Part shown: positions 2,284 through 30,200 of the stretch, in pieces | How positions within the stretch are numbered: position 1 is the first letter of the stretch | How the letters are laid out: each line of letters starts with the position of its first letter | Origin: a virus | Virus record (IMG/VR): IMGVR_UViG_3300037486_000104 | Span: 1 to 38,477 of that record | Length of the DNA stretch: 38,477 nt | Direction: 5' to 3' (one strand) | Position numbers and translations under genes: made by a program | The notes under the pieces: model-generated | Told to the model about the DNA's origin: nothing | The model's input: the letters and a program-made list of their open reading frames with translations, nothing else | Database searches by the model: none

Positions 2284-3071
2284 CTTCCGAGTTCGTCAAC
2301 GTCGCAACGCTGGTTGGCCTGGGCCTGATTGTCATTCTGCTGTTCCTGTTCACGACGGGGCGCATCGGCAGCCGGGATCGACTGGCAAACGGCCTGGGAC
2401 ACGAGGTTGAAAGGCTCAATTCAACTGTCGATACCCTGCTCAAGCGCAACGACGATTTGCTGGTGGAGATCGCCAAGCTGCGCACCGAACTGGAAAAGAC
2501 ACAAGGCGAGTTGCGCGTGGCATTGGAGCGCATCACCTTGTTGGACGGCAAGGCGAGTCTACCTGGCACGACCGGACGACCGGCCAAGCCGCTCCTGCTG
2601 GTGCAGTGCAATAAAATTTTTGGCGACGACGACGCCCAGGCGATTCGGCGGGTGGGCATCCCATTCCACCGCTTGCAAGAGTGTACGTCTCAGAAGTTCG
2701 ATTCCTATCTGCAAGACTTTCGGGAGGATAAGGCGTCACCCTGGTTCGTACAGATCAGCGCACACATGGGCGTGGATGGCGTCGAATTTACGGATGGCGT
2801 CAAGGGCGTACAGTGGCTCAGTCAGCGGATTCGTGACGTGCGGGTGTTAGTCTTGGCGGGCTGTGAGAACGAGGAAGTGGGGCGGCAATTGGTGGGCCTG
2901 GCACAATATGTCGTCGTCATTTACGAGTCTATTAGCAGCCGGGACGCGCAGTCATTTTCATTCTCATTCTGGCGGGCCATCAATGAGGAACTGGGGCCGC
3001 GTGAGGCATTTCGGCGGGCGCTGATAGAATGTCCACAGACGAGTGAGTACATACAAATGAGAGGGGGCTAA
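2280..3071 (+). CDS. Membrane-anchored coiled-coil protein with CHAT/caspase-like protease domain
   Basis: 263 residues, starting at ATG 2280 with GGCGGAGGAGG upstream; the longer in-frame ORF lies inside the previous gene and is rejected. Order: one transmembrane helix (about 8-27), a heptad-rich coiled coil (about 34-88), a Gly/Pro linker (90-102), then an alpha/beta domain (104-255). That domain has the hallmarks of CHAT/caspase-like peptidases: His162 in QISAHMGVDG, a second hydrophobic strand with Cys195 in VLVLAGCENEEVG, and a C-terminal part (YVVVIYESISSRDAQSFSFSFWRAI, in two pieces, then GPREAFRRAL) matching the usual CHAT ending. Known CHAT proteins are cysteine proteases in bacterial defence and cell-death systems. 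The domain call is by motif only; activity is inferred. The only closely coupled partner is the membrane protein upstream. Confidence 0.72.
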   Translation: MTSEFVNVATLVGLGLIVILLFLFTTGRIGSRDRLANGLGHEVERLNSTVDTLLKRNDDLLVEIAKLRTELEKTQGELRVALERITLLDGKASLPGTTGRPAKPLLLVQCNKIFGDDDAQAIRRVGIPFHRLQECTSQKFDSYLQDFREDKASPWFVQISAHMGVDGVEFTDGVKGVQWLSQRIRDVRVLVLAGCENEEVGRQLVGLAQYVVVIYESISSRDAQSFSFSFWRAINEELGPREAFRRALIECPQTSEYIQMRGG

Positions 3072-3073
3072 AT

Positions 3074-3136
3074 ATGTTGCCACGGCTCACGGGCGAACAT
3101 CTGGCGGTCAGCGTGTACGGGCTGATGACGGGGTGA
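3074..3136 (+). CDS. Possible 20-residue small ORF
   Basis: ATG 3074 to TGA 3134-3136, encoding MLPRLTGEHLAVSVYGLMTG, placed between the CHAT-like gene and the next large gene with a purine-rich stretch (gagggggc) upstream. It fills the gap with tight spacing, which supports translation as a leader or coupling peptide, but it is very short and has no recognisable motif. It may be only a translational bridge. Confidence 0.3.
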   Translation: MLPRLTGEHLAVSVYGLMTG

Positions 3137-3140
3137 GGGT

Positions 3141-4508
3141 ATGGCAAATTGGTCTGCTGACTTTCTCGAACGCAATCCCGACCTCGCCGGGAAGACTTTG
3201 ACGCGGCACCGCCACGGCATCACGGCGGCGCTGAATGCGAGTGAAAGTGTTTCCCACTTCGTCGGCAGTCCGGCGCATTATCAGGATGGCAACGGCGCCT
3301 GGCAGCCGCTCGATACCGCGCTACAGTTGATCGGCACCGAGTATGGTGCGCCGGGTCTGGCAACGCGCATCAGCCTCGATGGGGCGGTGCGCATCGCCGG
3401 CCAGACGCATGGCCACCGCTCCACGCGCGTCGGCATCCTCACGCCGGCGACTATGAGTTTTGTCGGCTACCGCACGATTCCCAACGGCGCGGTTTCCGGC
3501 AACCAGATCATTGCGGAGAACGGCATCTGGAAGCGCGTGTTGACGCTGACCGAGCGCGGGGTGCGTGAGGAGATCGTCATCGCTGAGAAGCCCAGTATCC
3601 CCGGCGTCAAGCTCACGGACTGGCTGGTGTTGGAAACGGCGATCCAGGGCAGCAGTTTCCCGGACGGCTGGCTCGATGAGTTTGAGGCGAGCGAGATGCG
3701 CTTCCCGCCGCCGCGCGCGCACGACAGTAGCGTGGAGCAGCCTGATACTCCCGCTGAGTGCAAACGTTATGCGCGCACCGTGGGTAACATCCAGTATCTC
3801 TATACCGGCGTGCCGGTCGCCTGGCTCGCGGATGCCGTCTACCCAGTCACCATCGACCCCGATTTTGCCGCGGATAGCGCCGATGTCGAGGTGTACGGCG
3901 GCCCTGCAGCCTATGCGACCGCGCGCAGCACAAGCACCGGCTACATCGATGATACAACCATGCGCGTCGGCCAGACCCGGTCGGGGACGTGGTCTGTGTG
4001 GCGCGCGCTGCTGCTCTTCGACACCAGCGCCATCCCTGATGGCGACATCATCTCGCAAGTCAATCTAAAACTAACCTGCACCGATGACCAGTCTGGCGCC
4101 GCCGATTTCGACGTCCAAATCGCAAAACAGGATTGGTCAGCGCAGAATCCGGTGGACGCGGGCAACCGGGAGGCGGCTTACGACAACTGCCTGGCCGCCA
4201 CCGCTGATGACGCCATATGGCGTAACACGAACGCCATCAGTACCAACACGGAATACACGTCTGGCAATCTCGCGACTGCCTGGCCCAGCAAAACCGGCGT
4301 CACCTATTATTCGTTGCGTTCCAGCCGCGATTATGACAACAACACGCCGGGCGGTGCTGAATATATCGCAATCGCCGCGCAGGATCACGGGACGGCGGGC
4401 TACCGGCCCCTGTTGGCGATCACGCACGCGGCACCGCCAGGGCATCCCGCCATGCGTCGCATGATGAACGTACCCTACGTTGTAGGAGGCAGGTCTTACT
4501 ATGGCTGA
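3141..4508 (+). CDS. Phage adhesin/fibre-like protein with C-terminal jelly-roll-like domain
   Basis: 455 residues from ATG 3141, behind gtgaggg. The N-terminal 70 residues contain HYQDGNGAWQPLDTAL, a pattern seen in large secreted repeat and toxin-scaffold proteins where a substrate-facing module begins. The middle contains PVAWLADAVYPVTIDPDF, also typical of such extracellular scaffolds. From about residue 285, WRALLLFDTSAIPDGDIISQ resembles DNRLRE/carbohydrate-binding-type beta-sandwich domains (FDTS..IP.G..I). No signal peptide is seen, consistent with a virion protein rather than a secreted one. Likely a tail-associated receptor-binding or decorating protein; precise role inferred. Confidence 0.6.
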   Translation: MANWSADFLERNPDLAGKTLTRHRHGITAALNASESVSHFVGSPAHYQDGNGAWQPLDTALQLIGTEYGAPGLATRISLDGAVRIAGQTHGHRSTRVGILTPATMSFVGYRTIPNGAVSGNQIIAENGIWKRVLTLTERGVREEIVIAEKPSIPGVKLTDWLVLETAIQGSSFPDGWLDEFEASEMRFPPPRAHDSSVEQPDTPAECKRYARTVGNIQYLYTGVPVAWLADAVYPVTIDPDFAADSADVEVYGGPAAYATARSTSTGYIDDTTMRVGQTRSGTWSVWRALLLFDTSAIPDGDIISQVNLKLTCTDDQSGAADFDVQIAKQDWSAQNPVDAGNREAAYDNCLAATADDAIWRNTNAISTNTEYTSGNLATAWPSKTGVTYYSLRSSRDYDNNTPGGAEYIAIAAQDHGTAGYRPLLAITHAAPPGHPAMRRMMNVPYVVGGRSYYG

Positions 4509-9631: not shown

Positions 9632-9703
9632 ATGGCAACGAATCCAATCGCAGAGCAATTTAACAACCGAATAGTCGCGGCTGTTCTGGACGGACAGCCA
9701 TGA
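9632..9703 (+). CDS. 23-residue small ORF coupled to the giant repeat gene
   Basis: ATG 9632 to TGA 9701-9703 encodes MATNPIAEQFNNRIVAAVL plus DGQP. It is preceded by tgaggtac and its stop overlaps the ATG of the 1304-residue gene (ATGA at 9700-9703). The overlap supports real translation and coupling. Function unknown. Confidence 0.5.
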   Translation: MATNPIAEQFNNRIVAAVLDGQP

Positions 9704-12700
9704 GCGCGGGCTTATTCGATCTGCTTGGCCTTGGCCTGGGTCTGGGCGTACCACAGGTAGTCGGCTCATTTACCGCCGATGCGATCCTGCAACGGGCGCG
9801 CAGTGGCTCGGTGACCGCCAATGCGATAATTGCGAAGACGCAGACGGGAAGCATCGCAGGTTCGGCGGTCGTGCTCGGCACTATCTCAAGCAGCGTAAGC
9901 GCCAGCGCCGTCCTGGCAAAGAGTCAAGCGGACAGCATCATGGCCTCCGCGGTTATTGTCAAGGCGGGCAGCGGCTCGGTAAGCGCCGCCGCCGTTGTCG
10001 GCAAGGCGCAGGCGGGTAGTCTCACAAGTGCGGCCATTATCCAAAGCGCTGTCTCAAGCAGCGTCACCGCCAATGCCATACTGGTAAAGAGTCAAGCCGA
10101 CAGCTTTACGGCTGACGCGATTATCATTAAGGCGGGCAGCGGATCAGTCACTACCGACGCGATTATCGTCAAGGGTCAATCATCTAGCGTAACCGCAAGC
10201 GCCACGATCCTTGCGGACAAAACTTCCAGCGTCACGGCGGATGCCGTACTCCAAACGAGCAGGGCCGCGAGTATCACGGCGGACGCCATTCTCCTGCACG
10301 GTCAAACAGATAGCGTAACTGTCGAAGCGGTCATCAGCAAGGCCAAGTCTGCCAGCTTTACAGGCGCTGCGATCCTGTTGCGGGAGCGCAGCGGGTCAAT
10401 CACTGCCGACGCGGTTTTGGTCAAGGCGCAGGCGACAAGCCTGACCGCCGCTGCCGTAATCCAACAAACGAGTGCCATCCAACTCACGGTAGATGCCATA
10501 ATCGTCAAGGGGCAATCCGCCAGCATAGTGGCAAGCGCCACGATCCTCGCGGGTAAAACTGCCAGTGTCACAGCGGATGCCGTACTCGTAACAGGCAAGG
10601 CCGCCAGCGTCACGGCCAGCGCCGTCCTACTCCGAGAACGAACGGGCAGCGTCACAGCCGCGGCGATTATCAATAAGGCCCAGTCATCCAGTGTCACCGG
10701 CGACGCGATTCTACTTCGGGAGCGCGGCGGCTCGGTAACCACCAATGCCGTTTTGGTCAAGGTACAAGCGGCGAGCTTTACCGCTTCTGCAATCATCCAA
10801 CAATCTGGCAGCGCCCAAACCGCAGCGGATGCCGTAATCATCAAGGCGCAAGCCACTGGCATCGCAGCCAGCGCGATTATCTTGCGGGCGGCAACAACTA
10901 GCATTACGGCTGATGCGGTACTGAGCAAAGCACAAGCCGCCAGCATCACAGCGGATGCGATTATCATTCTCGGTCGGACTGGTTTGCTGACTGGCGCAGC
11001 CGTAATCGTGCGGGCGCAGGCAGCGGCCCTTACCGCCGACGCGACAATTCAGAACGCTCTCGCAAGCAGCATCACGGCCAACGCGGTTATCCAGCGCGCT
11101 CGTGCAGGCACCTTTACAACTGACGCCATTCTTCAGACGTTACGCAGCGGCAGCGTCTCCGCCAACGCGACGATCTTCAAGGCGCAGGTTCAAAGCGTCA
11201 CGGCGGATGCCTATATCGTTACCATAGGCGCGCAGGCGATCTCCGCCGATGCCATAATCCAGCAGGAGCGCACTTCCAGCGTCACCGCCGACGCCTACCT
11301 CGTTTGGACAAGCGCGGCCAGTCTGACCACTGACGCAATTTTGCTCAAGGTGTCAGCCGGAAGCATCACCGGCGCGGCGATCATCCAACAGGGTAGGGCG
11401 TCAAGCATCACGGCGAATGCCACGCTAAAATCCGTAAGCGCAAACAGCATCACGGCGGATGCGATTATCATTGGCGCTCAGGCAGCCGCGTTTAGCGCCG
11501 ACGCCATAATCCTGCTACTCCGGTCGAGTAGCCTTACCGCCAATGCTATTGTTCAGAGTCGCGCAGACCGTGCCATAAGCGCGGACGGCATCATTCAACA
11601 GGCGCGTTCGACCAGCATCACGGCGGACGCCGTTATTGACAAGGCTGGTTCCGGGTCGCTGATCGCCGATGCCGTGATACAAGGCGCACAAACTGGCGCT
11701 GTAACCGCGGATGCCGTACTTCGCAGGGAACAGACAGGCAGCATCACCGCCGATGCCGTAATCGGACAATCTCGCTCAGGCACCTTTACAACCGACGCCA
11801 TTCTCCAGGCATTGCGCAGCGGCAGCATCACCGCCGACGCGACAATCGTCAAGGCGCAGGCCCAAAGCCTTACGGCGGACGCCTATATAGTCACCATAGG
11901 CGCGCAGGCGATCTCCGCCGATGCCATAATCCAGCAGGCGCGCACTTCCAGCGTCACCGCCGACGCCTATATCATTTGGACAAGCGCGGCCAGTCTAACC
12001 GCGGATGCAGTCTTGCTCAAGGCGCATGTCGGGGCCATTACCGGCGCGGCGGTCATTCAACGGAGTCGGGCGTCCAGCATCACGGCTGACGCCACACTAA
12101 AGTCTGTAAGCGCAAGTAGTGTCACGGCGAACGCCGTTATCAGCGAAGGTCAGGCAACGGCGCTAACCGCCGATGCCATAATCCTGCTACTCCGTTCGGG
12201 TGGCGTCACTACCGATGCCGTTGTTCAGAGCCGCGTAGACCGCGTCATAAGCGCGGATAGTATCATTCAGCGGACGGTATCACTCAGTGTCACGGCGAAC
12301 GCCGTTATCAGCAAGGCGGGTTCCGGGGCGCTGACTACCGACGCCGTAATCGGTCAATCACGGGCCAGTTCCTTTACAACCGACGCAATCCTGCTCAGGC
12401 AGCGTAGCGGTCAAGCCAGCATTGACGCCACGATCTTCCGCGCACAGAGCGGCAGCGTCACCGCCGATGCGTATATCAGCACGGCGGGCTGGCAAACAAT
12501 CACCGCCAACGCGACGATTCAGCGCGAGCGCACAGGCACAGTCACCGCGGACGCGTTTATCATTACGGCGCAAGCGGGGAGCCTGACAGCCGATGCCGTG
12601 GTGCAGGTCGGGCGTACTGCCTCGGTCGGCGCGAACGCTGTTATCCAGAATTCACGTACCGGACAGATCACGGCGCAAGCGATAATCCAGGCGGCGGGCA

Positions 12701-13614
12701 GTTCCAGCGTCGGCGTGGATGCCGTCATTCGCCAGGCGCAGAGCGGCTCCTTCACAAGCGACGCGGTTCTAACGGCAACACGCACCGGGCAAGTCACGGC
12801 GCAAGCAATCATCGTCCAAGCGCGCGCCGATAGTATCACGGCGAACGCCATTCTCAGCAGGACGCGCACCGGCAGCGTCACAACCGACGCCGTCCTGCTA
12901 CGGACGCAGGCCAGCACCTTTACAGCCGACGCCTATATCATCACGACTGGTGGACAGTCTATCACGGTTTCCGCCGTCATCTTGCGCGAGCGTACAGCAA
13001 ACGTCGCGGTGGGCGCATTCATCGTCACGCCGCGCACGGGCAGCATCACCGCCGACGCGCTGGTGTTGGTCGGGCGCTCAGGTAGCGTCACCGCCCAGGC
13101 AATCGTACAACAAGCCAATACCGGCAGCGTCGCGGCGCAGGCGGCAATCCAGACGACACGCGCGGGCAGCATCACAACCAGCGCCCTCCTGCAACAAACA
13201 CGAGCCGGGAGCGTCGTCGTCAGTGCCTTCCTGCAAACGTTGCGACTTGCCAGCATCACGGCACAGGCCGTGGTCAAGGCGACTCAGGCAGGTGCAGTCA
13301 CAGCCGCGGCCAGCATCGCCCAACCGCGGGCGAGCACTCTTAGCGCAAATGCCTACATCGTCTACTCCGGCGAGCGCGTGTTGCTGGCTGATGCGACGAT
13401 CTTGCGGGAACAAACCGCAAGTCTGACGGCTCAAGCGGTCATCAAGGCGACAGCAAGCGGCAGCATCACAGCGGGCGCCTACATTCTGAGCGGCATCATA
13501 CCGGAATGTCGCCTGTTTGACATCGAAGCGGAAGAACGCTTCTTTGACATAACTGAAGAACGCTTCTTTGACGTTGAGGCGGAAGACCGCTTCTTCGACA
13601 TAGACTGCGGCTAG
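9700..13614 (+). CDS. 1304-residue repeat protein (89 tandem 14-residue repeats), likely fibre shaft
   Basis: Starts at ATG 9700 coupled to the small upstream ORF. Residues 1-21 form a short hydrophobic Gly/Leu cap. Residues 22-1267 are exactly 89 repeats of 14 residues with consensus xS[VI]TADA[VI][IL]xxxxx. No indel disturbs the phase wherever I checked. The C-terminal 37 residues carry a different short repeat (RLFDIEAEE, RFFDITEE, RFFDVEAED, RFFDIDCG). Alternating small and beta-branched residues with a Gly/Ser turn suggest a beta-solenoid or beta-roll fibre. The next gene looks like a fibre-tail adaptor, which supports a fibre role. No catalytic motif is seen. Function is inferred from architecture and context. 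Confidence 0.7.
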   Translation: MSAGLFDLLGLGLGLGVPQVVGSFTADAILQRARSGSVTANAIIAKTQTGSIAGSAVVLGTISSSVSASAVLAKSQADSIMASAVIVKAGSGSVSAAAVVGKAQAGSLTSAAIIQSAVSSSVTANAILVKSQADSFTADAIIIKAGSGSVTTDAIIVKGQSSSVTASATILADKTSSVTADAVLQTSRAASITADAILLHGQTDSVTVEAVISKAKSASFTGAAILLRERSGSITADAVLVKAQATSLTAAAVIQQTSAIQLTVDAIIVKGQSASIVASATILAGKTASVTADAVLVTGKAASVTASAVLLRERTGSVTAAAIINKAQSSSVTGDAILLRERGGSVTTNAVLVKVQAASFTASAIIQQSGSAQTAADAVIIKAQATGIAASAIILRAATTSITADAVLSKAQAASITADAIIILGRTGLLTGAAVIVRAQAAALTADATIQNALASSITANAVIQRARAGTFTTDAILQTLRSGSVSANATIFKAQVQSVTADAYIVTIGAQAISADAIIQQERTSSVTADAYLVWTSAASLTTDAILLKVSAGSITGAAIIQQGRASSITANATLKSVSANSITADAIIIGAQAAAFSADAIILLLRSSSLTANAIVQSRADRAISADGIIQQARSTSITADAVIDKAGSGSLIADAVIQGAQTGAVTADAVLRREQTGSITADAVIGQSRSGTFTTDAILQALRSGSITADATIVKAQAQSLTADAYIVTIGAQAISADAIIQQARTSSVTADAYIIWTSAASLTADAVLLKAHVGAITGAAVIQRSRASSITADATLKSVSASSVTANAVISEGQATALTADAIILLLRSGGVTTDAVVQSRVDRVISADSIIQRTVSLSVTANAVISKAGSGALTTDAVIGQSRASSFTTDAILLRQRSGQASIDATIFRAQSGSVTADAYISTAGWQTITANATIQRERTGTVTADAFIITAQAGSLTADAVVQVGRTASVGANAVIQNSRTGQITAQAIIQAAGSSSVGVDAVIRQAQSGSFTSDAVLTATRTGQVTAQAIIVQARADSITANAILSRTRTGSVTTDAVLLRTQASTFTADAYIITTGGQSITVSAVILRERTANVAVGAFIVTPRTGSITADALVLVGRSGSVTAQAIVQQANTGSVAAQAAIQTTRAGSITTSALLQQTRAGSVVVSAFLQTLRLASITAQAVVKATQAGAVTAAASIAQPRASTLSANAYIVYSGERVLLADATILREQTASLTAQAVIKATASGSITAGAYILSGIIPECRLFDIEAEERFFDITEERFFDVEAEDRFFDIDCG
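9763..13500 (+). repeat. 42-bp coding repeat array, 89 units
   Basis: The 3738-bp stretch codes for 89 in-phase 14-residue repeats. Units differ in sequence but keep length. The most conserved DNA core is close to agcatcacggcggatgcc. It will be a recombination hotspot and a likely site of length variation or assembly error. Confidence 0.9.
11107..12450 (+). repeat. 672-bp higher-order tandem duplication inside the repeat gene
   Basis: Sixteen 14-residue units (11107-11778) are duplicated as the next sixteen (11779-12450). Both copies begin with G-T-F-T-T-D-A-I-L-Q and pass through YIVTIGAQAISADAIIQQ and then ATLKSVSA. A further diverged copy starts at 12367 (SSFTTDAILLRQRS). This shows growth by block duplication as well as by single units. 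Confidence 0.75.
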
Positions 13615-15308: not shown

Positions 15309-15710
15309 ATGGAAGTCGTAGAACACGTCAGCGAAATGATGGATCATAGCTGCACCGTTCAACAAGCATCCGTTGTCAGTGGCGGTTATGGTCACAACAC
15401 CTTCGACTATGTTTCACCAACCGCGACGACGCTGCTGGTGGATTGTCATTACTCGCCGGGTGGCGTGCGCGAGATCATCTCTGCACGCACGGCAGGCGTG
15501 GACATTCAGACACATTCGCTCTGGATGAAATACGCCGACGCGCCGACTACGCTGACCGTGCCCGGCGCGACGCTCAATCATCGCATCACTACCATCGTGC
15601 GGCTCGACACCGGCGCGAGCGTGGACGCCGGGCCGTTCGACATCACGGACATCGTGGACATGGCGGGCAAGCACCAGTTGCTCAGGCTGATGCTCAAGAG
15701 GATCGCGTAG
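15309..15710 (+). CDS. Head-closure / head-tail adaptor-like protein
   Basis: 133 residues. ATG 15309 has aagga five bases upstream and is preferred to the in-frame GTG at 15288. The product is a small beta-barrel-like protein with CTVQQASVVSGGYGHNTFDY at the start and FDITDIVDMAGKHQLLRLML at the end, the usual look of head-closure (stopper) proteins. It precedes an HK97 gp10-like gene and a tail-terminator-like gene, the standard order of a siphovirus neck module. Confidence 0.6.
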   Translation: MEVVEHVSEMMDHSCTVQQASVVSGGYGHNTFDYVSPTATTLLVDCHYSPGGVREIISARTAGVDIQTHSLWMKYADAPTTLTVPGATLNHRITTIVRLDTGASVDAGPFDITDIVDMAGKHQLLRLMLKRIA

Positions 15711-16358
15711 ATGCTCGACACTATCTTGGGCCGCGACTGGATTGTGGAGTTTTTCAATCCAAACCACGTACCGGCTGGCAGCAGAAAGGGCGGACAATTC
15801 GCGTCCGTGGGTAACTCTATAGCTACCCCAGAAACAAGTTATAGTGAGGATCAGGCTTATTTGGAAGCGGCGAATTTGGATCAGGGAGAAGTCGAGGCGC
15901 TATAGGCGTGGTCGGGCGATGATCACTACAGTTCCGTATTGGAGGATAAGATGAATTACTTGTCGCCTGCTTTGGCGACGGGCTTACAGAAGATGCCTAC
16001 ATATCACGGGCCACTAGCACGCTGGCAAGCTGACATGCCTAAGTTACGGGTCGGTAGTAAATTTACTTTACCGGCATTGGCATCATTTGCACGACCAGGT
16101 AGTTCGTTAGAAAACCAACGCGGCCAGTACGAGCCTGTAAAGTTGATTATCGAAAATGGTACGGGGAAACGTATCTTACTTTCATGGCGTGATCAAGAAC
16201 GCGAGGTGGTGCTACCGAGAGGAACCGAATTTCAGGTTATGGCTATCGAAGACAGGATAATGCCAGAATATATACCGGGAGCTAATCGCAAGCAACGCGT
16301 CTTTACCTTGCGCCAACTCAATACCGTTGAAATTACTACAAAGGCATTGGCGAGATAA
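15711..16358 (+). pseudogene. ADP-ribosyltransferase-like protein interrupted by in-frame TAG (15903-15905)
   Basis: Two ORFs in the same frame, 15711-15905 (64 residues) and 15951-16358 (135 residues, with its own site ggagga), read as one 215-residue protein if TAG 15903-15905 is decoded. The N-terminus carries a tag (NPNHVPAGSRKGGQFAS, residues 16-32). Sequence on both sides of the stop fits one ART fold: GEVEAL, then AWSGDDHYSSVL, then YHGPLARW with candidate Arg24 (numbered from 15951), SFARPGSS (45-52) and the Glu-x-Glu motif E83-R-E85 in QEREVVLPRGTEF. R-S-E ADP-ribosyltransferases modify host proteins using NAD. The second ORF contains all visible motifs and could be translated alone. 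Other genes here end in TAG, so a reassigned code is unlikely. Confidence 0.65.
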
Positions 16359-16362
16359 CACG

Positions 16363-16845
16363 ATGAAGACAACGGCGACGATCCGGGTATCATTCAACAC
16401 GGCGCTCGCGAAAGCGATGGGCGAGAGCTTCACGACCGAGGTCGCCGCGGAGTTTGGCGATCAGGTCTTGGCGCGGGCGAAGCACAACGTTTCGCCGGGC
16501 GTCGGCCCAGGAATCCATCCGCACGTCAGTGAACATTTCGACACAGGCACGCTGATGGAAAACATATTTGCAGACATCGCAAAGACTGCGAATGGCGTGA
16601 CGATGCACGTCTGGACACCTATCGAGTACGGACTTTGGAATGAGGCCGGATGGACTACCACGACAGGCCGCTTCATACGCTATCCCTGGCTCAGCGTTGC
16701 GGTCTCTGATGTGCAAAAGGAGCTTTCTTCGATTATCCGAGCAAAGGCGGACGTGGCTTTCGCTGGAGGCGCACGTGGCGGCGCGATAGCGATTCGTAAG
16801 GGTTCTAATACGTGGGACTATCTCCGAGGGTCAAGTCGGAAGTAG
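16363..16845 (+). CDS. HK97 gp10-like neck/tail-completion protein
   Basis: 160 residues from ATG 16363, four bases after the ART stop; the frame is open upstream to 16327 but that start is inside the ART gene. HPHVSEHFDTGTLMENIF followed by PIEYGLWNEAGWTTTTGRFI and FIRYPWLSVAV is the family pattern of HK97 gp10-type proteins (tonic helix, then YAxxxEFG-like motif, then PWL.PA-like motif). The role is in joining tail to head. The 3' end overlaps the convergent homing endonuclease by 15 bases. Confidence 0.7.
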   Translation: MKTTATIRVSFNTALAKAMGESFTTEVAAEFGDQVLARAKHNVSPGVGPGIHPHVSEHFDTGTLMENIFADIAKTANGVTMHVWTPIEYGLWNEAGWTTTTGRFIRYPWLSVAVSDVQKELSSIIRAKADVAFAGGARGGAIAIRKGSNTWDYLRGSSRK

Positions 16846-17706
16846 TTCCTTCCATACTTTACCGTTTTTGATGGCACAAATATGACGACACGAAACACCG
16901 TACTGCTTTGCGAGACTTTTTCCGGTTTGGCCCTCGGCCAACAACCGGCGAATCTCAATTACATCAACCGCTTTCAATTTGGCAAAGTGACACCCTTCAC
17001 CGGCGTGACGCTGATTCGTCAACTGATTCAGGCGTTCTGGTATAAGTTCTGGACAAAGCACGTGTTTCCAAATATTGCCATTGCGGATTTTACCGATAGT
17101 AGTTGGGTACACATTGAAATCGCGGGCAAGGTCATAAATCGTATCGCCGAGCACCAACCGGCGCTTGATTTCAGCGACCTTATCTTCATCGAGCTTTGCT
17201 ACGGGAGATTTAGAACCGGTATGCGCGGCGATTTGTTGGGGAGTACGTTTCGTTCCAGCAGGAGTTCCGGCCCGTGGCGCGATATTGTAACCATATTCCG
17301 GTTCCGCGCTTCGCAGTTTGTCTATCCAGTATTGCTCGCGTTCGGTAAGATGTTCCTGGTCGGATTCCTCAAGAATGATAAACTTGAAGGCGTCTCGACC
17401 ATACCTGTTCCAGTCGCCCTGCAATCGCGTGCAGGGATTTCTGCCGTGCCACAGATCGCTGCGATGATTGCGCCAACGTTTTACAATGTCGGTGGAACCT
17501 CCGACATAACGCATATCTGTGATAAGATTGCGAATCATGTAGACACCACAAACAGGCTTGCGGGCAAGATCGGCAGCCTTGAGATTGATACCAGTTTGCT
17601 TGTTGGCGCAGGACACGTTACAAAAGCGCCGTCTTTTGAAATTGAAAGAATCTTCACTGACACGTTGCGACAATTCGGCATGGCAGTATTCGCAAACTTT
17701 AGGCAT
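16831..17706 (-). CDS. Free-standing GIY-YIG homing endonuclease
   Basis: 291 residues on the - strand. An N-terminal zinc-finger-like set of Cys5, Cys8, Cys29 and Cys33 precedes the GIY-YIG nuclease domain: GVY at 54-56, YVG at 67-69, Arg-rich KRWRNHR (76-82), catalytic Glu124 in TEREQYWID, and Asn141 in YNIAP. Two C-terminal helix-turn-helix repeats of the intron-encoded nuclease type follow (about 171-216 and 243-287), each ending in NGxxWK. It has a consensus promoter and the ribosome site AAGGAGT. It lies between two intact neck genes, so it is an intergenic (free-standing) mobile gene that would cut cognate DNA lacking it. It is transcribed against the late operon. Confidence 0.9.
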   Translation of the reverse strand: MPKVCEYCHAELSQRVSEDSFNFKRRRFCNVSCANKQTGINLKAADLARKPVCGVYMIRNLITDMRYVGGSTDIVKRWRNHRSDLWHGRNPCTRLQGDWNRYGRDAFKFIILEESDQEHLTEREQYWIDKLRSAEPEYGYNIAPRAGTPAGTKRTPQQIAAHTGSKSPVAKLDEDKVAEIKRRLVLGDTIYDLARDFNVYPTTIGKIRNGNIWKHVLCPELIPERLNQLTNQRHAGEGCHFAKLKAVDVIEIRRLLAEGQTGKSLAKQYGVSCRHICAIKNGKVWKELLPT

Positions 17707-17729
17707 AACGTAAACTCCTTACATACGGT

Positions 17730-17758
17730 ATTTTATACGAATCTGACTCATTTGTCAA
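17730..17758 (-). promoter_or_regulatory. Sigma70-type promoter of the homing endonuclease
   Basis: On the - strand, TTGACA (17753-17758) and TAAAAT (17730-17735) are separated by 17 bases, 24 bases upstream of the start codon. The ribosome site AAGGAGT is at 17714-17720. This lets the nuclease be expressed independently of the late genes. Confidence 0.75.
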
Positions 17759-17777
17759 TTGCGGGACACGTGATGCC

Positions 17778-18197
17778 ATGATAGACGAAACGGCTACTTT
17801 GATTGCCTATCTGCTGACGGTTAATGGCGTGACGACGCAAGTTTCCACCCGCGTGTTTGGGCCACCCGGCCTACCGATTGGATACGCTGGCGCGACTAAG
17901 GCTCTGGTAATTATGCCTGATGGCGGAAGTCAGCCAACCGATATGCCAATTATGACAATGCCTTTTCAGGTGCGCTGCTATGGGCCGACACCTACCGCGG
18001 CGCATGAGGTATACGCGGCAGTGCATGATGCTTTGCACAACTGCGGGCCGATACAGGTAACGGTTGGCGCAACGAAGGTAGTATTGGCTCGCAGTCAACG
18101 TCTATCTGGCCCGGTGTATCTGCCCGAATTAGAGACGGGGTGGCAGATGTGGCTGGCGCGCTACGGCGCGATCCTCAGCGACAGGACGGTGACATGA
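17778..18197 (+). CDS. Tail-terminator / tail-completion-like protein
   Basis: 139 residues from ATG 17778. The N-terminus MIDETATLIAYLLTVNGVTT and the middle MPFQVRCYGPTPTAAHEVYA followed by VHDAL match the usual layout of phage tail-terminator / minor capsid proteins of the DUF3168 type (short helix, strand, then Q.RcYg..p..A...a..v). It probably forms the ring that ends tail-tube assembly. The stop overlaps the next gene by ATGA (18194-18197). Confidence 0.6.
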   Translation: MIDETATLIAYLLTVNGVTTQVSTRVFGPPGLPIGYAGATKALVIMPDGGSQPTDMPIMTMPFQVRCYGPTPTAAHEVYAAVHDALHNCGPIQVTVGATKVVLARSQRLSGPVYLPELETGWQMWLARYGAILSDRTVT

Positions 18198-18708
18198 GCG
18201 TCCTATCGCGCGTCCTGGGCGACGAATGGGTTGTGCAGTTCGGCAATCCCTACCATGAACCCGCGGGCACAACCAAAGGCGGGCGTTTCGCCAAGGCTCC
18301 CGCAGGCGCGCCAATAGCCGTTGGCTCACAAATCGCGGCGGGTATCCATCGCATTTGGATGGAACATCCTGTTTACGGAAAGGAAACCGTAGGCGAATTT
18401 CTTGACCGACACGAAATCAAAGTGCATGAAGACGGCACGGTAACACTTTATCATGCTCGGCCCAAGACGGCGGTTTTCGACACTCTCCGGGAAGGCAGCT
18501 ATCTCGAAAAAGACCCGGAAGCGGCTCGGCATTACGCGGCGCGAGATCGCGGTTTGAAGCCGGTCAGATTGAGGTGCTGGAGATTCGTATTCCCGTTGAC
18601 GCTATCGAGCCGGGCGTTTTCATTACGACGCGAGCGCCCTTTGAGGTAAAAGACGCCAAGCGCGTAAAGCCATCTCGCAAGAAGGCAACAGAGGATTGGA
18701 CGCCATGA
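18194..18708 (+). pseudogene. Second tagged ADP-ribosyltransferase-like protein, frameshifted near 18540
   Basis: ATG 18194 overlaps the previous stop. The N-terminus shares a tag with the ART gene at 15711: LGDEWVVQFGNPYHEPAG and KGGRFAK, 16 of 27 positions identical. The C-terminal domain has DGTVTLYHARPKTAV and YLEKDPEAARHYAAR, typical of ART-like folds (YH motif, then later acidic-Ala-Tyr helix). In the present frame the protein ends with an unrelated basic tail at 18649. Frame -1 carries the natural continuation (FEAGQIEVLEIRIPVDAIEP, then GVFITTRAPFEV) to TGA 18706-18708, which overlaps the next ATG as ATGA. A one-base loss near 18540-18550, or an assembly error, explains this best. Confidence 0.65.
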
Positions 18709-19187
18709 CCTGGCTTTCCTTTGGCGAGCGCACCTATCATCCCGGCAGCCTACGGCTTGACATTCGGCCCGTGGCGGACATCATGGGAGATGGATTGCGG
18801 CTCCCATTCGCGGATCGCAGTTTCGACGGCGTGGAATGCTACCACGTCCTCGAACACCTGCTACCGTGGGACGGCGCGCGGCTGCTGGCGGAAATGGCGC
18901 GCGTCACGCAACCCGGTTGCCCGGTCGAGGTCGCCGTGCCGGATATGCAGAAATGCGCCAATGCCCTGGTACACGGACACACGAGCGTGCTTGATATCAT
19001 TTTTAGCCCGCGGGCGGAACTGGCGCTGTGTCATCGTATGGGTTACACGCCGACCCTACTGGCGCAGGCCATGTTGAAGCACCTGCGCGGCGTAGACTTC
19101 TTGCCGCAGCGGGCGGAAGACGTTTTGGAGATTCGCTTGGTGGGTTATTCACCAGAAGGAGATCACTCAGATGATCCCTCTCAGTAA
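18705..19187 (+). CDS. Short class I SAM-dependent methyltransferase-like protein
   Basis: 160 residues from ATG 18705, chosen because it overlaps the natural stop of the preceding gene as ATGA. DGLRLPFADRSFDGVECYHV followed by LEHL (HVLEH at 47-51) is the motif II/III block of Methyltransf_11-type enzymes. The usual glycine-rich motif I at the N-terminus is absent or reduced to LRLDIRPVADIMGDG, so the domain is unusually short. It opens a sugar-modification cassette and may methylate a sugar or act with the partner enzymes. Confidence 0.65.
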   Translation: MTWLSFGERTYHPGSLRLDIRPVADIMGDGLRLPFADRSFDGVECYHVLEHLLPWDGARLLAEMARVTQPGCPVEVAVPDMQKCANALVHGHTSVLDIIFSPRAELALCHRMGYTPTLLAQAMLKHLRGVDFLPQRAEDVLEIRLVGYSPEGDHSDDPSQ

Positions 19188-20253
19188 ACCGCACTTCTTC
19201 GGTCGCGAGGTCGAATACGTCACGACCGCATTGGCCCAGCGCCAGCTTTCGGGTGGCGCGTATGTCGCGGCGCTCGAAGACGCCTTTGCGCACTTCATCA
19301 ACGCCAAGCACGCCATTTCCTGTTCGACAGGCACGGCGGCGCTGCACCTGCTGTTACGGGCACTCTGCGTCGGGCCGGGGGATGAGGTGATCGTACCGAG
19401 TTTGACCTATATCGCCACGGCCAACGCCGTGACCTACTGCGGCGCAACGCCGGTCTTTGCGGACGTTGACCCGCTGACCTGGACACTTGACCCGGACGCC
19501 GCGGCGGCGGTCATCACGCCGCGCACGGTCGGCATCCTGGCGGTGCATCTCTACGGCGTACCTGCGCCGCTCGACAAACTGACGTGGCTGGCCCACCAGC
19601 ATAGCCTGTGGCTGGCCGAGGACGCCGCGGAGGCGCACGGCTCGGTGTATCAGGACAAGCCCATCGGCAGCACGGCATTGGGCGCAGCGGCATTTTCATT
19701 CTTCGGAAGCAAGACTTTAGCGTGTGGCGAAGGCGGCATGGTCACGACGAACAACGCACGCCTGGCCGATGCCATGCGGCGCTTGCGCGGACAAGGTGTT
19801 GATCCGACGCGCAAATACTGGCATACTGAGCTTGGCTACAACTACCGCTTGCCCGAACTCAGCGCGGCGGTGGCGCTCGGTCAAGTCGAGACGGCAGCGC
19901 AACACGTCGCGGCGCGGGCGCGACTTTGGCAAGAGTATCAGGAACGCTTGCCGCAAGCGGACTGGCAACGCGCACCGGCCAACACGCAGGAATGTCGCTG
20001 GCTGGCGGCCCTACGTGTACCCAAACGTGACAAGGCCATGCGCGCCTTAGCGCAAGCGGGCATCGAAACCCGTCCGGCCTTTCCGCCCTTGCATACGCAG
20101 CCAGTCTACGCCATACCTGAAAGCAAGGCTTACGCATCTCAGCCGGTGGCTGAGGACATCGCGGCGCATGGCCTGTGCTTGCCGCTGCACGTTGGCCTGA
20201 GCGTGCAGGACATGGCGACGATTTGCCGGGAGGTAACGCCGTGGCTCGCATAA
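19171..20253 (+). CDS. DegT/DnrJ/EryC1/StrS-family PLP-dependent sugar aminotransferase
   Basis: 360 residues from ATG 19171, overlapping the previous gene by 17 bases with aaggagat upstream. Family signatures are clear: LSGGAYVAALEDAFA near the start, CSTGTAALHLLL (PLP phosphate site), PSLTYIATANAV, LAEDAAEAHG (Asp151 contacts the PLP ring) and FSFFGSKTLACGEGGM with the Schiff-base Lys181. Length is normal for the family. These enzymes transfer an amino group to a nucleotide-linked keto-sugar (for example perosamine-type sugars). An acyltransferase and glycosyltransferases follow, so an N-acylated amino sugar could be made and attached. No dehydratase is in the window, so the substrate would come from the host. 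Confidence 0.9.
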   Translation: MIPLSKPHFFGREVEYVTTALAQRQLSGGAYVAALEDAFAHFINAKHAISCSTGTAALHLLLRALCVGPGDEVIVPSLTYIATANAVTYCGATPVFADVDPLTWTLDPDAAAAVITPRTVGILAVHLYGVPAPLDKLTWLAHQHSLWLAEDAAEAHGSVYQDKPIGSTALGAAAFSFFGSKTLACGEGGMVTTNNARLADAMRRLRGQGVDPTRKYWHTELGYNYRLPELSAAVALGQVETAAQHVAARARLWQEYQERLPQADWQRAPANTQECRWLAALRVPKRDKAMRALAQAGIETRPAFPPLHTQPVYAIPESKAYASQPVAEDIAAHGLCLPLHVGLSVQDMATICREVTPWLA

Positions 20254-20951
20254 CCCTGACGTCGGCCTTCCGCAACAGCAGCGACTACTTGCCGCGCTAC
20301 TTCGCACAGATCGAGGGGCTGCGCGCGGGCCTGGAGGGGCGCGGCGACACGCTTGACTTGGCGCTGATTTACGGCGATTGCGTGGATCACACCGCCGAGG
20401 CGCTGTATTACATGGCCGCGGCCAGCGGTTGCACGGCGGCTATCGCGGAGCACTCACACGGTGGCAGGCACTTGGGTAGCATCATCACGCCGATGCGCTT
20501 GCGCGCCTTGGCGGGTGTGGGAAACGCCATGCTGGAATTGGTGCCGGACGAGGCCGACGCGCTGCTGTACGTCGAAAGTGACTTGATCTGGACAGCCGCC
20601 GACCTGCTGGCGCTGCTGGACGATCTGCAAACACCGCAGGTCAACCTGGCCTTCCCGATGGTCATGGCGAGCGGCGAACACCGTTTCTATGATACCTGGG
20701 CCTATCGCATCGGTACGGCATCCTTCCAGCGGTATTGGCCGTATCACAAGGCATTAGCGGACGGTGTGCCGGGCGACCTGGTTGAACTCAGCGGCGCGGG
20801 ATCATGCGCGGCGGTGCGTGGCGATACCGTACCAACCATTAAGCAGATCGGCTTCCAAGCCTGGGGGGTATGGCCGGAGCTTGTCAAAACCCTGGGGCAG
20901 GTTGGGTACCGAGCGTGGCTAGACCCGCGGGTAACAATATGGCACCCATAG
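20241..20951 (+). CDS. GT-A-type glycosyltransferase
   Basis: 236 residues from GTG 20241, with the ribosome site GGGAGGTAA and a 13-base overlap with the aminotransferase gene; this is preferred to the upstream frame start at 20175. [18 protein letters not shown] is a GT2-like first strand and helix, [15 protein letters not shown] a second, and [10 protein letters not shown] (ESD at 112-114) a likely metal-binding DxD-type motif. The C-terminus has [14 protein letters not shown], similar to the acceptor loop of related enzymes. Substrate unknown. Confidence 0.7.
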
Positions 20952-20962
20952 GAGAGAATCTC

Positions 20963-21529
20963 GTGCAAGATTCCACTACCACAACCGGCAACGTGCCGGT
21001 GACCATTGGCGGCAACGGCAGCATCCGCTACACCTTCGCGGAGTTTGGCGAGGGCGCGGAGATCTTCGACTGGTGCGTGGTGCTCAATCCCGAACTGATT
21101 CACATCGGGCCGCACACCAGGGTGGACAGCATGGTGAAATTGGAAGGCGGGCACGGCGCGGGCCTGTTCATCGGCGCACACGTGCATATCTGCTCATTCT
21201 GCCATATCAATACGGGCGGCGGCACGGTCTACATCGGCAACTATGCCGGCATCGCGTCCGGCGCGAAGATTCTCGGCGGCACGAATCTACCCGACGCGCC
21301 GAGTATGTCCGCGGCGGCTCCGCCTGAGATGCAGCACGTTGCGCGCATGGGCACGGGCATCGGCGCATACGCCTTCATCGGCGCGAACGCCGTGGTCATG
21401 CCGGGCATCACCATCGGGGAGGGCGCAGTCGTCGGAGCCGGTTCGGTGGTCACCAAGAACATCGCGCCGTGGACGATTGTAGCGGGCAATCCCGCCCGGC
21501 AAATCGGGGAGCGCAGCCATGACTGGTAA
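20963..21529 (+). CDS. Left-handed beta-helix (hexapeptide) acyltransferase
   Basis: 188 residues from GTG 20963, chosen because aggagaga lies just upstream; ATG 20939 lacks a ribosome site and overlaps the previous gene. Repeated hexapeptide turns are visible from about residue 50 on ([52 protein letters not shown]), ending with the family-typical [16 protein letters not shown]. Such enzymes acetylate amino or hydroxy sugars. Placed next to an aminotransferase, it probably N-acylates an amino sugar. Confidence 0.88.
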
Positions 21530-22547
21530 GCCAGAGCGTCCACCACTCAAGCTGGTCTGGATACCGGCCATTGCCGACGAAGCGGTCGGCTACGGCAAAA
21601 TCTCCGCCTATCTGCCGCGCTACGTCAACGCCGCGGGCGCGGAGAGCGTCGGCTATCGGGCCTATGATTGGGACTGGCGCATCGCGGTCGGCGGGCCGCG
21701 GGCTTACCTCATGGGCCGCGGGACGCACATCATCGAGGATTTTATCTATCACACCATGTTCGAGGCGCGCCCGATCCCGCCTGACTATCTCGGCGTGCTC
21801 AATCGCAGTCGGGCGATCTGGGTGCCCTCAACCTGGGTGCGCGACTTGTTCATCGAGGGCGGCGTGACGCGACCGATCTTCGTATCCGGTTACGGCGTCA
21901 ACAAGGACTACTTTCACGCCAAGTATGATATGCATCGGGAAGACGAACCATACACCTTCCTGTGGTGTGGCACGGCGCTAGGCGACGGCGAGAACATCGG
22001 TGACCGCAAGGGGGGCGAACTGGTGTGGCAGGCGTTTCGCAAGCTCAATCTACCGGACAGCCGCTTGATTCTCAAGGCCGGCGCTACCAGCGCGGTCAGG
22101 CGCATCGTGGGCGATGACCGCATCATGCTCTCGACGGGCAATTTACCGGAGGCGGATTACGCCATGCTGTTAGCGTCCGCTGACTGTTTTGTGTACCCAT
22201 CGCGCGGCGAGGGGTTTGGACTCCAACCGCTCGAAGCGCTGGCGATAGGGTTGCCGGTAATCGCACCGGCATATTCTGGCATGGCCGACTTTATCAAGTC
22301 GGATACGGCAATCGTCCTGCCCGTGCGGGGCGAAGTACATGCGCATCTGTACAGCAACATCTATAATCTGGAATGTGCTTGGGCCGAGCTAAGTCTGGAT
22401 GATGTATGCGACCGGATGCGTTGGGCTTACGACCATCGCGAGGAAGCCAAAGCTATCGGCTGCCGGGCCGCGGCTTGGGTCGCCAAACGTTGGACGTGGC
22501 AAGCGGCTGGCAAGCGTGCTTACAAGGCGCTGCTGGCTATCAAGTAA
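21519..22547 (+). CDS. GT4-family (GT-B) glycosyltransferase
   Basis: 342 residues from ATG 21519, overlapping the acyltransferase by 11 bases. The C-terminal domain shows the GT4 signature: [20 protein letters not shown] with the EX7E pair Glu231 and Glu239, then [28 protein letters not shown] and TGNLPEADY match the donor-binding region. The N-terminal domain has [17 protein letters not shown] in the glycine-loop position. It probably transfers the modified sugar to a virion or surface acceptor. It is the last gene before the tail-tube gene, so the cassette lies inside the structural operon. Confidence 0.9.
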
Positions 22548-27200: not shown

Positions 27201-30200
27201 CCTTGAAACCTAAATTGACGGAGCTTGGTGTTGCATTTGGCGAGTTGGTCAAGGCACTGGAACCCATCGGCGTAGTAGTGGCCGCTGTTATTGCTATCAT
27301 CGTCAAGTTGATCGGGGAGGTGCTAGGGCAGGTAATTGCCAATGCGGGTGTAATTTTTGGCGGACTACTTGACGTGGTAACTAACGTTATGGGGGGCATC
27401 ACAGACATTATCACTATTGCTGTGGCGGTGATTTCGGGAATCTTCTCCGGTGACTGGGAAAAGGCGAATACAGCCCTCAAGGCCAGCTATACAAGTCTGG
27501 ATGAACACATCCTTGGCATCGTCAAAGGCATCGTGACGGCCATCGAGGGCCTGGTCAAGTCGATATGGGATGCGATCTCAAATCTGATAAATGATCTCAC
27601 GGGCACGAATTTGCCAAAATGGGACGAGTTCAAGGAAGGGGTAGTAAAGGCATTCGAGCAATTGGCTACGGGCGTCAACGACAAAGTGAGCAAAGTTCGC
27701 AAGGCGATTGATAACATTGTCGATGCAATCCAAAACGCGATTTCCAACCCGACGCAGTTGCTCTACAACGTCGGGCGCGACATCATCGCTGGCTTGGCGC
27801 AGGGCATCATCGACATGAAGGATCATCTGCTGAAGCGGGCGCAGGAGCTTTTCGACGGGCTGCCGGTGTGGGCGCGCAAGCTGTTGGGCATCGCCTCACC
27901 GTCAAAAGTGTTTGAGGTGATTGGGCAAGAAGCTATGGCAGGCTTTGCCATTGGCCTAACGGCGGGTGCTGTGCCCGTGCTCGGCAGCATCACCAACACA
28001 ATCCAGGCGATCATTGCGGCGTTCGCGGAACTGGCGGGATGGGCGGCCTCGCCAAATAGCGGCTTTGCGAGCGCCAAGGCGGTGCTTGAACCATTGAACG
28101 ACATGCTGACCGCTCTCCAGGGCGTCCTTGAGGGGCTGGATGCTTTGGCGGACTTTGTGCCACGGACAAACATTGCGGCGAAGCTCCCGACACTTTTTGA
28201 GAGTATAAAGACCATCGTGCGCGGTTTTGCCGATATGTCCGGCTGGGCGGCTGATCCGGCGCACGGATTCTGGGGAGCAAAGGCGGTGCTGAAACCGCTG
28301 AGCGAGATGCTCGAAGGCTTGCCGTCGATTTTGGATACCGTGGCGGCTATAGCGGCCTATGATACGAAGCTGGCAAAGACGCAGGCGGGGGTGGCGTATG
28401 TAGTCGAGGCGATCCAGGTGATTATCGGTAAGCTGGCGGAGTTGAATCGAAAATTGGTGCCAGCCGAACTAACCGATGCGCTGGATTTGGCGCGTGTGCT
28501 TGGGCAACTGGCCGAGGGCCTGGCAGCCGTGCCAACGCTGCTAGAAGTAATCAATGGCGCACTGAACCTGAGCGAGCGCCTGCTGTCGGGCTTCGTACTT
28601 CCAAATGTGGCGCAATTGCGGCGGGTAGGCGAGTTTATTGCCCAACTGGTAACGGAAGTAGGTAAGGCAGCCGCGCTGGCAGATGAGGAACTGCGGGCGG
28701 CAGCCGTCCAGCTTGCAAACAGCGTAGGGCCGGTGCTGGCTATCATAGGCGACGCATTGGGCGTACTGGCAGACATGCGAAGCTACATCATCGTGCCAAA
28801 TTTGAACATATTGCGTTGGCAGGTGTTCCAAATCAGCTTCTTTATCATGTTTTTGGTCGATAGCCTGGGCGCACTTGGCAGGGACATTCACGATCTGGTA
28901 TATTCTGGCGCGCAAAAGTTACTTGAGGTGACGGGGCCAGCGTTGGCGGCTGTCAAAATGGCGTTTGAGTTGTTGGACAGCGTTCGCGACTTCCTGGTGA
29001 TTCCCGATATGAACCTCCTACGCTGGCAGGTATTCCAGATCACATGGTTCATCAAATATCTGGTCGACAACCTTGGTGTCTTCGGCAAGGATATGAGCGA
29101 TCTGGTATTGGGCGGCGCTCGGCGTTTTGAAGAAGTCGCCTTACCAGCGTTGGCGGCTGTCAAAATGGCATTGGATTTGTTGGCTGATGTGCGCGAGTTC
29201 GTCGCCATCCCAGACATGAAGGTATTAAGCTGGCAGGTATTCCAAATCACGGCATTTATCAAATACCTAGTCGATAGCCTAGGCGTCTTCGGCAAGGACA
29301 TAAGTTCCCTGGTGTACGCCGGTGCCCAACTACTTATCGAGGTGGCAGGGCCAGCGTTGGCATTGGTAAAAACGGCACTGGAAGCCATCGCCGCAGTGCG
29401 GGATTACGTACCGGTGCCCAGCCTCAACGCGGTGGATGTGAGCCTCCAACAACTGGCGACGTTCATTAAGCGGGTGGTGAATCTACTGGGCGCGGCCTCC
29501 GCGCTGATCACCGACGAGCTAATGACTGCGGCGCAAAAGCTGGCGACCGCGGCCGGGCCAGCGTTAGGACTTATCAAGACGGGCATCGACGCGCTAACAG
29601 CGATCAAGGATTATGTGCTGCTGCCCACTCTCAACTCGGTAGACAAAAGCCTCCAGCAATTGGTAACGTTTATCCAGAGGGTGGTCAACCTACTGGGTAC
29701 GGCCACCCCGCTGATTACCGGAAAGCTGCTGGAAGCGGCGCAGAAGCTGGCGACCGCGGCGGGGCCTGCATTGGGACTTATCAAGACGGGCATCGACGCG
29801 CTGGTGGCAATCAAGGACTACGTGCTACTACCCAGCCTCAACGCGGTGGACGAAAGCCTCAAGCAACTCGTGACGTTCATTCAGAGGGTGGTCAACCTAC
29901 TGGGCACGGCTACCCCGCTGATTACCGATGTGCTGATAACAGCGGCGCAGAAGTTGGCGACCGCAGCGGGGCCGGCGTTAGGGCTTATCAAGACGGGCAT
30001 CGATGCGCTAACAGCGATCAAGGATTATGTACTGCTACCCAGCCTCAACGCGGTGGACGAAAGTCTCAAGCAACTCGTGACGTTCATTCAGCGGGTAGTC
30101 AACCTGTTGGGCACGGCCACCCCGCTGATTACCGATGCACTCATGACCGCGGCGCAAAAGCTGGCAACCGCAGCAGGGCCTGCGTTAGGACTTATCAAAA

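Follow-up and report, generated by a model that had tools for sequence, protein, structure and literature searches.

A short N-terminal peptide shared by two otherwise unrelated late genes of a tailed phage, a candidate loading signal for head-borne effectors

The DNA analysed here (the window), 38,477 bases long, is a single virus record of IMG/VR and contains late genes of a tailed phage, the products of which include a head-completion protein (a weak assignment), Neck1, a tail terminator, a major tail protein and a tape measure. Two plus-strand genes that share an N-terminal leader and tag, gene 1 starting at 15711 and gene 2 at 18194, are encoded among these late, virion genes, between those for head completion, Neck1 and the tail terminator, the kind of placement by which polyvalent proteins are recognised. 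Gene 1 lies downstream of a head-completion-like gene (15309-15710, +; Phage_HCP E=0.038, weak family support) and upstream of that for the Neck1 or tail-completion protein (16363-16845, +; phrog_5 E=6e-6). Gene 2 lies downstream of the tail terminator gene (17778-18197, +; PF12691 E=2e-5, phrog_123 E=2e-6) and is followed by a methyltransferase gene (18706-19187, +). Between Neck1 and the tail terminator stands a GIY-YIG homing endonuclease gene on the other strand (16831-17706, -; E=5e-13).

The first-pass annotation held that one N-terminal tag stands on two proteins whose remainders differ, and the comparison bears this out. Gene 1 begins with MLDTILGRDWIVEFFNPNHVPAGSRKGGQFAS (15711-15806, +) and gene 2 with MSVLSRVLGDEWVVQFGNPYHEPAGTTKGGRFAK (18194-18295, +); 17 of 31 aligned residues of leader plus tag are identical, the sequences beyond the tag are unrelated, and the ungapped BLOSUM62 score of the pair is 102, whereas 5,000 shuffles averaged 19 and never exceeded 46. 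A hidden Markov model (HMM) of the tag, whose training set included the gene 1 site, matches gene 1 with E=6e-13 and gene 2 with E=6e-10, and six leaders from three related phages have the common form M..(L)..(I/V)(L/F)G..W...(F/L).N..H...G...GG.F. Different codons are used at 10 of the 17 shared residues, and 58 of 93 nucleotides are identical, so that conservation is at the level of the peptide while the DNA has drifted. Two copies 2.5 kb apart in one phage with a common N-terminus might be diverged duplicates of a single gene, the tag being leftover homology; however, what lies downstream is unrelated and has a composition unlike that of the leader, and in other phages many families with no relation to one another stand behind the tag, all of which makes duplication very improbable.

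Both genes are missing from a sister phage (L039/G002; 107.5 kb, about 95% identical to the window and collinear with it; the stored pieces of G002 were joined for searching only). The segments 15711-16362 and 18198-18705 are morons absent from this relative: window positions 15709 and 16363 are adjacent in L039 (10401/10402), where the Neck1 gene directly follows the head-completion gene, and positions 18197 and 18706 are likewise adjacent (12234-12236), with the methyltransferase gene directly after the tail terminator. The sister phage has tagged genes of its own, one (MIERIFGKRWLHDLFNSRHEPGGSSIGGQFAR...) after the methyltransferase gene in a slot at window positions 19157-19163, and another (MGLLDTILGKSWVAHFFNPNHVRAGSPTGGQFTS...) in a slot at 799-802, window position about 800. 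In a more distant relative, L007, whose head-completion protein and tail terminator are 61% and 64% identical to those of the window, a tagged gene precedes that for head completion and a methyltransferase gene follows it, and no tagged gene comes after the tail terminator. Tagged genes are present or absent as exact units, and their slots vary. The proposal that each follows a neck gene holds within the window (a head-completion-like gene, weakly supported, and the tail terminator gene) but not as a rule, other slots being used in the sister phage and L007.

Mobility of the tagged genes between sister phages, and the homing endonuclease gene between the two in the window, would suit a DNA-level feature (a target for recombination or homing) that is translated by coincidence. 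This explanation is hardly credible, given the codon and nucleotide differences described above and an endonuclease gene that is kept in the sister phage, which is without both window tagged genes; a DNA-level recombination site was rejected on the codon differences. The endonuclease gene occurs in L039 as well, and L007 has a diverged copy with an extra gene beside it.

Composition also divides each gene at the tag. The GC content at third codon positions (GC3) is 0.74 +/- 0.05 for the genes of this phage; that of the leader plus tag is 0.69 in gene 1, resembling the phage's own genes, and 0.74 in gene 2. For the two window genes and one sister gene taken together, the leader plus tag has a GC3 of 0.70 and the effector parts 0.47 (Fisher p=2e-5), and at fourfold sites only the values are 0.69 and 0.50 (p=0.011). 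The break after the tag indicates that the handle is resident and that the effectors of those three genes are recent arrivals, although the sister's other standalone tagged gene is without a break (0.67 vs 0.65). In our picture the gene has two parts: the shared N-terminus, made up of a leader proper to the phage lineage and a short Gly-rich tag, stays in place, and effector domains of foreign origin would be exchanged behind it.

As assembled, gene 1 is open for 64 codons (15711-15905, +) up to an in-frame TAG (15903-15905), beyond which the same frame continues (15906-16358, +) with the ADP-ribosyltransferase (ART)-like effector part, of foreign-looking composition (GC3 0.47). The open reading frame (ORF) of gene 2 runs from 18194 to 18649 (+); compared with a homologue in locus L119, its residues beyond about 18550 are in the wrong frame, and that homologue has a single open frame across the site matching the frame change near 18550. 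The other-frame tail of gene 2 (18550-18708, +) overlaps the methyltransferase gene by ATGA at its end. Its likeness to the C-terminal part of the L119 homologue is visible by eye only, tblastn of this tail against that homologue giving no significant match. A recoded TAG in gene 1 was rejected, as TAG is the stop of 6 among 23 genes checked and a search for tRNA genes gave none; so was a programmed -1 frameshift in gene 2, as no slippery heptamer is visible at the site and the frame of the homologue is continuous. The pieces of the interrupted frames were searched separately. The interruptions may be real lesions or assembly errors, and the two copies look like decaying cassettes.

Both genes had been described as ART-like at first, a label that is weakly upheld for gene 1, through one segment with a score below the Pfam cut-off, and was not upheld for gene 2. 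The sole part of gene 1 with family-level support is an E-x-E-like segment (DQEREVVLPRGTEFQVMAIE; 16191-16250, +) near the C-terminus, which matches XopAI (NCBIfam E=3e-4; PDB E=0.005) and the tagged ARTs of other phages (hhalign E=2e-5 over 20 columns); against PF03496 gene 1 reaches E=0.2 and 11.4 bits, below the curated Pfam cut-off of 23.4. Within the ART signature R / S-T-S / E-x-E, the other two motifs are non-canonical by eye, and the predicted fold of the ART-like part (pLDDT 50) had no PDB match at E<=0.001. We therefore use the ART label for gene 1 tentatively. For gene 2 the label is unsupported: it has no family or PDB match, and its homologue (fold model pLDDT 45) is likewise without an ART family, solved ART or fold match. 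A related-locus search of virus contigs returned no relatives of either window effector.

The tag itself is widespread. It follows the pattern N..H.P(A/G)G...GGQFA, and 69 distinct sites of it, spread over 53 loci, were found in virus contigs. When NPxHxPAGxxxGGxFA was searched as a DNA pattern, 33 stretches of virus contigs matched, and 70 matched a looser pattern, the reversed control giving 0 matches where the forward pattern gave about 70; positions left free by the pattern are also conserved (Q at 58, S at 54 and F/Y before N at 41 of the 69 sites). More than 50 loci were fetched with the tight pattern, nearly all of them virus contigs. A tag restricted to cytoplasmic proteins, named at the outset as the refuting case, did not occur: in 257 Gb of bacterial and archaeal genomes the tight pattern matched one contig, a virus-like 6.8-kb fragment with phage-like genes. 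That contig (L085 1-1686) is assigned to a Thermoplasmatales metagenome-assembled genome, and its tagged protein looks like a nucleotidyltransferase. The tag lies at least 200 codons inside an open frame at 20 of the 69 sites; at 29 a stop codon or contig end stands within 60 codons upstream, so that most of those 29 sites are N-terminal. One array, in G012 (IMGVR_UViG_3300033482_000002, 25-37 kb), has 12 tag sites on one strand within 12 kb, with a near-copy in G023, and its consecutive tagged ORFs have a lineage-specific leader, e.g., MIIVPNSYGS / MFLVPNSWGS. A full-text literature search for the cores of this tag and of a second motif described below found no paper in an open-access collection that is itself incomplete.

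Where the tag is internal, the domains before it belong to portal proteins (L003, L008, L026, L033, and L082), MuF or head morphogenesis proteins (L004 and L032) and a prohead protease (S78), a domain of this kind preceding the tag in L056. The domains after it are varied: Zeta toxin (4), Nudix (2), PI3/4-kinase-like (2), S78 protease (2) and peptidoglycan-binding (2), with single cases of ART-PolyVal, DRAT, topoisomerase IB, FAD oxidoreductase, GNAT and zinc peptidase. The check suggested by the first-pass annotation, whether the tag is fused to varied toxin domains near head genes, was thus largely positive. In the sister phage the same leader and tag (MTDTLLDRVLGADWTTDLYNAAHQPAGSRKGGQFAK) stand in frame behind a minor-head-like protein with a Cys motif, the gene for which is near those for a Mu-type portal (PF06074 E=1e-22) and a terminase; a search for homologues of this head-like protein found only itself. 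At G002 57360 (-), an internal Met of this fusion has GGAGG, a strong Shine-Dalgarno-like sequence, six bases upstream, and the gene may yield both the fusion and a standalone tagged protein.

A second junction motif, GGPGSGNxGHxGRPGxxGGS (G002 58852-61218, -; loci L094-L173), lies between the domains of head-associated polyproteins and also at the start of standalone ARTs. It was found in 89 stretches of virus contigs, with up to ten copies in one record (IMGVR_UViG_3300025934_000015), and in G002 the domains of a 788-aa protein beside the head-like gene are separated by GGPGSGNYGHAGRPG..GGS, or a close variant of it, in three copies. Among six N-terminal parts tested before the motif, five matched MuF and one portal, and PF03496 ARTs follow it directly with E down to 7e-26. 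One segment of the L119 polyprotein, which has five such motifs and five effector segments, shows 43% identity (E=2e-16) to the gene 2 domain, and the head-fused effector of the sister phage is 39% identical (E=5e-20) to an effector of L173. As judged from these alignments, effector families are common to both motifs.

The interpretation that we favour, with a probability of roughly 55%, is that the tag is a module-boundary peptide of head-borne effectors and probably a loading signal, resembling the capsid-targeting sequence (CTS) of phage T4 in function and unrelated to it in sequence; it would have arisen separately from that of T4. The tag would mark the border between proteins of the head interior (portal, MuF-type minor head protein and prohead protease) and effector domains. 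In some phages the effector would be attached covalently through portal, MuF or protease, whereas standalone effectors would be recruited to the prohead by their tag, presumably through binding of a head component, then ejected with the DNA to act in the new host. Several observations weigh against this interpretation. Targeting does not require tags inside a polypeptide (up to three in one chain), and their position suits a linker or a cleavage site. With the interruptions described above, neither window gene yields a full effector as assembled. No convincing tag was found in cultured phages by tblastn, so there is no characterised example. The head-like protein of the sister phage, despite its MuF-like Cys motif, does not match the Pfam MuF model PF04233. 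Finally, a distance test of tag and portal gave p below 1/20,000 for the full set of 17 records and p=0.15, not significant, when a related group was reduced to one representative; the test was not used.

In T4, about 10 residues of IPIII suffice to target and deliver foreign proteins (PMC9026906). The T4 CTS of IPI, IPII and IPIII (Alt being an ADP-ribosyltransferase that T4 ejects) is likewise a short N-terminal peptide on differing mature parts, its cargo varies between related phages, and CTS fusions load and deliver foreign proteins (PMC9026906). However, it has about 10 residues with a gp21 cleavage site, whereas the peptide described here has about 32 and no conserved L/I-x-E, and stands internally behind portal and MuF as well. 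By inspection, a prohead-protease site L/I-x-E at the peptide end is present in one of the six leaders, that of gene 1 (IVE).

Another explanation denies the tag any role in targeting: between head proteins and effectors it would be either a flexible linker or a site cut by the maturation protease, surviving in standalone proteins as a vestige or propeptide. Its Gly/Ser/Pro-rich sequence and its internal, sometimes repeated position between domains (three tags in one 2,084-aa protein at most), including behind the prohead protease domain of L056, are in accordance with this. On the other hand, the near-fixed N, H, P, G and GGQF and the lineage-specific hydrophobic leader with G..W exceed what a linker needs, conservation ahead of standalone effectors demands a reason, and the T4 gp21 rule (L/I-x-E) is followed by a single leader of the six. 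We consider this explanation improbable.

The main rival to a loading signal is suggested by L026, in which the portal's C-terminal tail and the tag recur in a standalone ORF together with a related effector (57% identity, E=2e-55; 80% nucleotide identity over 256 bp). The active form might be the fusion of head protein, tag and effector, and standalone ORFs might be C-terminal modules that have been displaced, with the end of the structural gene retained as a leader, and that serve as a reservoir for swapping or decay, not packaged as such. Besides this copy in L026, the leader inside the head-like gene of the sister phage and the interruption of both window copies agree with such displacement, as does the formation of orphan modules, an established behaviour of polymorphic toxins according to passages of PMC3482391 and PMC3150448. 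Nevertheless, the standalone copies of this lineage keep the position of their start codon, mostly with a Shine-Dalgarno-like sequence, and occupy frame-tight slots of the late operon; the differing codons indicate that what this lineage conserves is the peptide, not recombining DNA; and about 29 of 69 sites, most of these N-terminal, have a stop or contig end within 60 codons upstream. Displacement in place of loading is in our opinion unlikely, though it deserves serious attention, and loading and displaced cassettes could both occur. In L026 (3645-7448), the portal-tag-effector fusion, a small Cys-rich ORF, the standalone tag-effector ORF and a similar Cys-rich ORF follow one another and look like two toxin-immunity pairs; a third related effector lies upstream (2707-3183), with the variant motif KHPRSKDGTFRTKG.

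Head-packaged polyvalent and MuF effectors are already known (PMC5512222, PMC5576092 and PMC9503650), and the passages of these papers returned by term searches name no boundary motif of this type. Those passages describe polyvalent proteins (Iyer 2017, PMC5512222) and packaged NAD/ADP-ribose enzymes (PMC9503650) in which, as here, ART, Zeta, Nudix, zincin and 2H domains are fused to MuF, portal or protease or are encoded among virion genes, and for which injection is predicted, their packaging being inferred from fusion or neighbourhood. In the same passages of both papers no shared boundary or N-terminal motif is described, and the word 'linker' does not occur in PMC5512222. Unlike polyvalent proteins, with 2-15 domains per polypeptide, the window proteins consist of the tag and one short effector part, although the gene 2 domain has its 43% identical counterpart in the L119 polyprotein and polyproteins with the related motif exist. 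In MuF polymorphic toxins (Jamet 2017, PMC5576092), a head protein likewise has an exchangeable C-terminal toxin, and the small Cys-rich ORF after each L026 fusion is placed as an immunity gene might be. The window genes, in contrast, have no MuF domain and leave no room for an immunity gene: the next gene starts 4 bases past the end of the gene 1 frame, and overlaps the other-frame tail in the case of gene 2. The word 'motif' is absent from the main text of PMC5576092.

Junction motifs are also a feature of contact-dependent and Rhs toxins, with their VENN and pre-toxin boundaries. These resemble the tag as conserved boundary peptides before a variable effector and differ from it in sequence, carrier and delivery route.

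A broader proposition is that tailed phages unrelated to T4 share a portable capsid-loading code, in which a few short peptides (the tag and GGPGSGNxGHxGRPGxxGGS) could be acquired by any effector and, whether fused behind portal or MuF or placed alone at the N-terminus, would suffice for packaging and injection. This is conceivable, and we advance it tentatively and with some doubt. Whether a phage effector is packaged is usually a guess, made from the genes around it or from its fusion to a head protein. If head-borne effectors, standalone ones included, bore a recognisable peptide, they could be found by sequence, one could say where and when families of unknown function act, and the heads of phages other than T4 could be loaded with reporter proteins of choice. 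The window and its sister, 95% identical, also show effectors that are swapped onto a resident handle.

Other features of the window were also observed. The late operon includes, between the tail terminator and the major tail protein (19171-22547), DegT-type aminotransferase, glycosyltransferase-like and methyltransferase genes. Long internal direct repeats are present in the region of a 1,304-aa protein (9700-13614) and in the tape-measure gene (about 29340-30440), and offset repeat matches occur in both of these regions in the sister phage.

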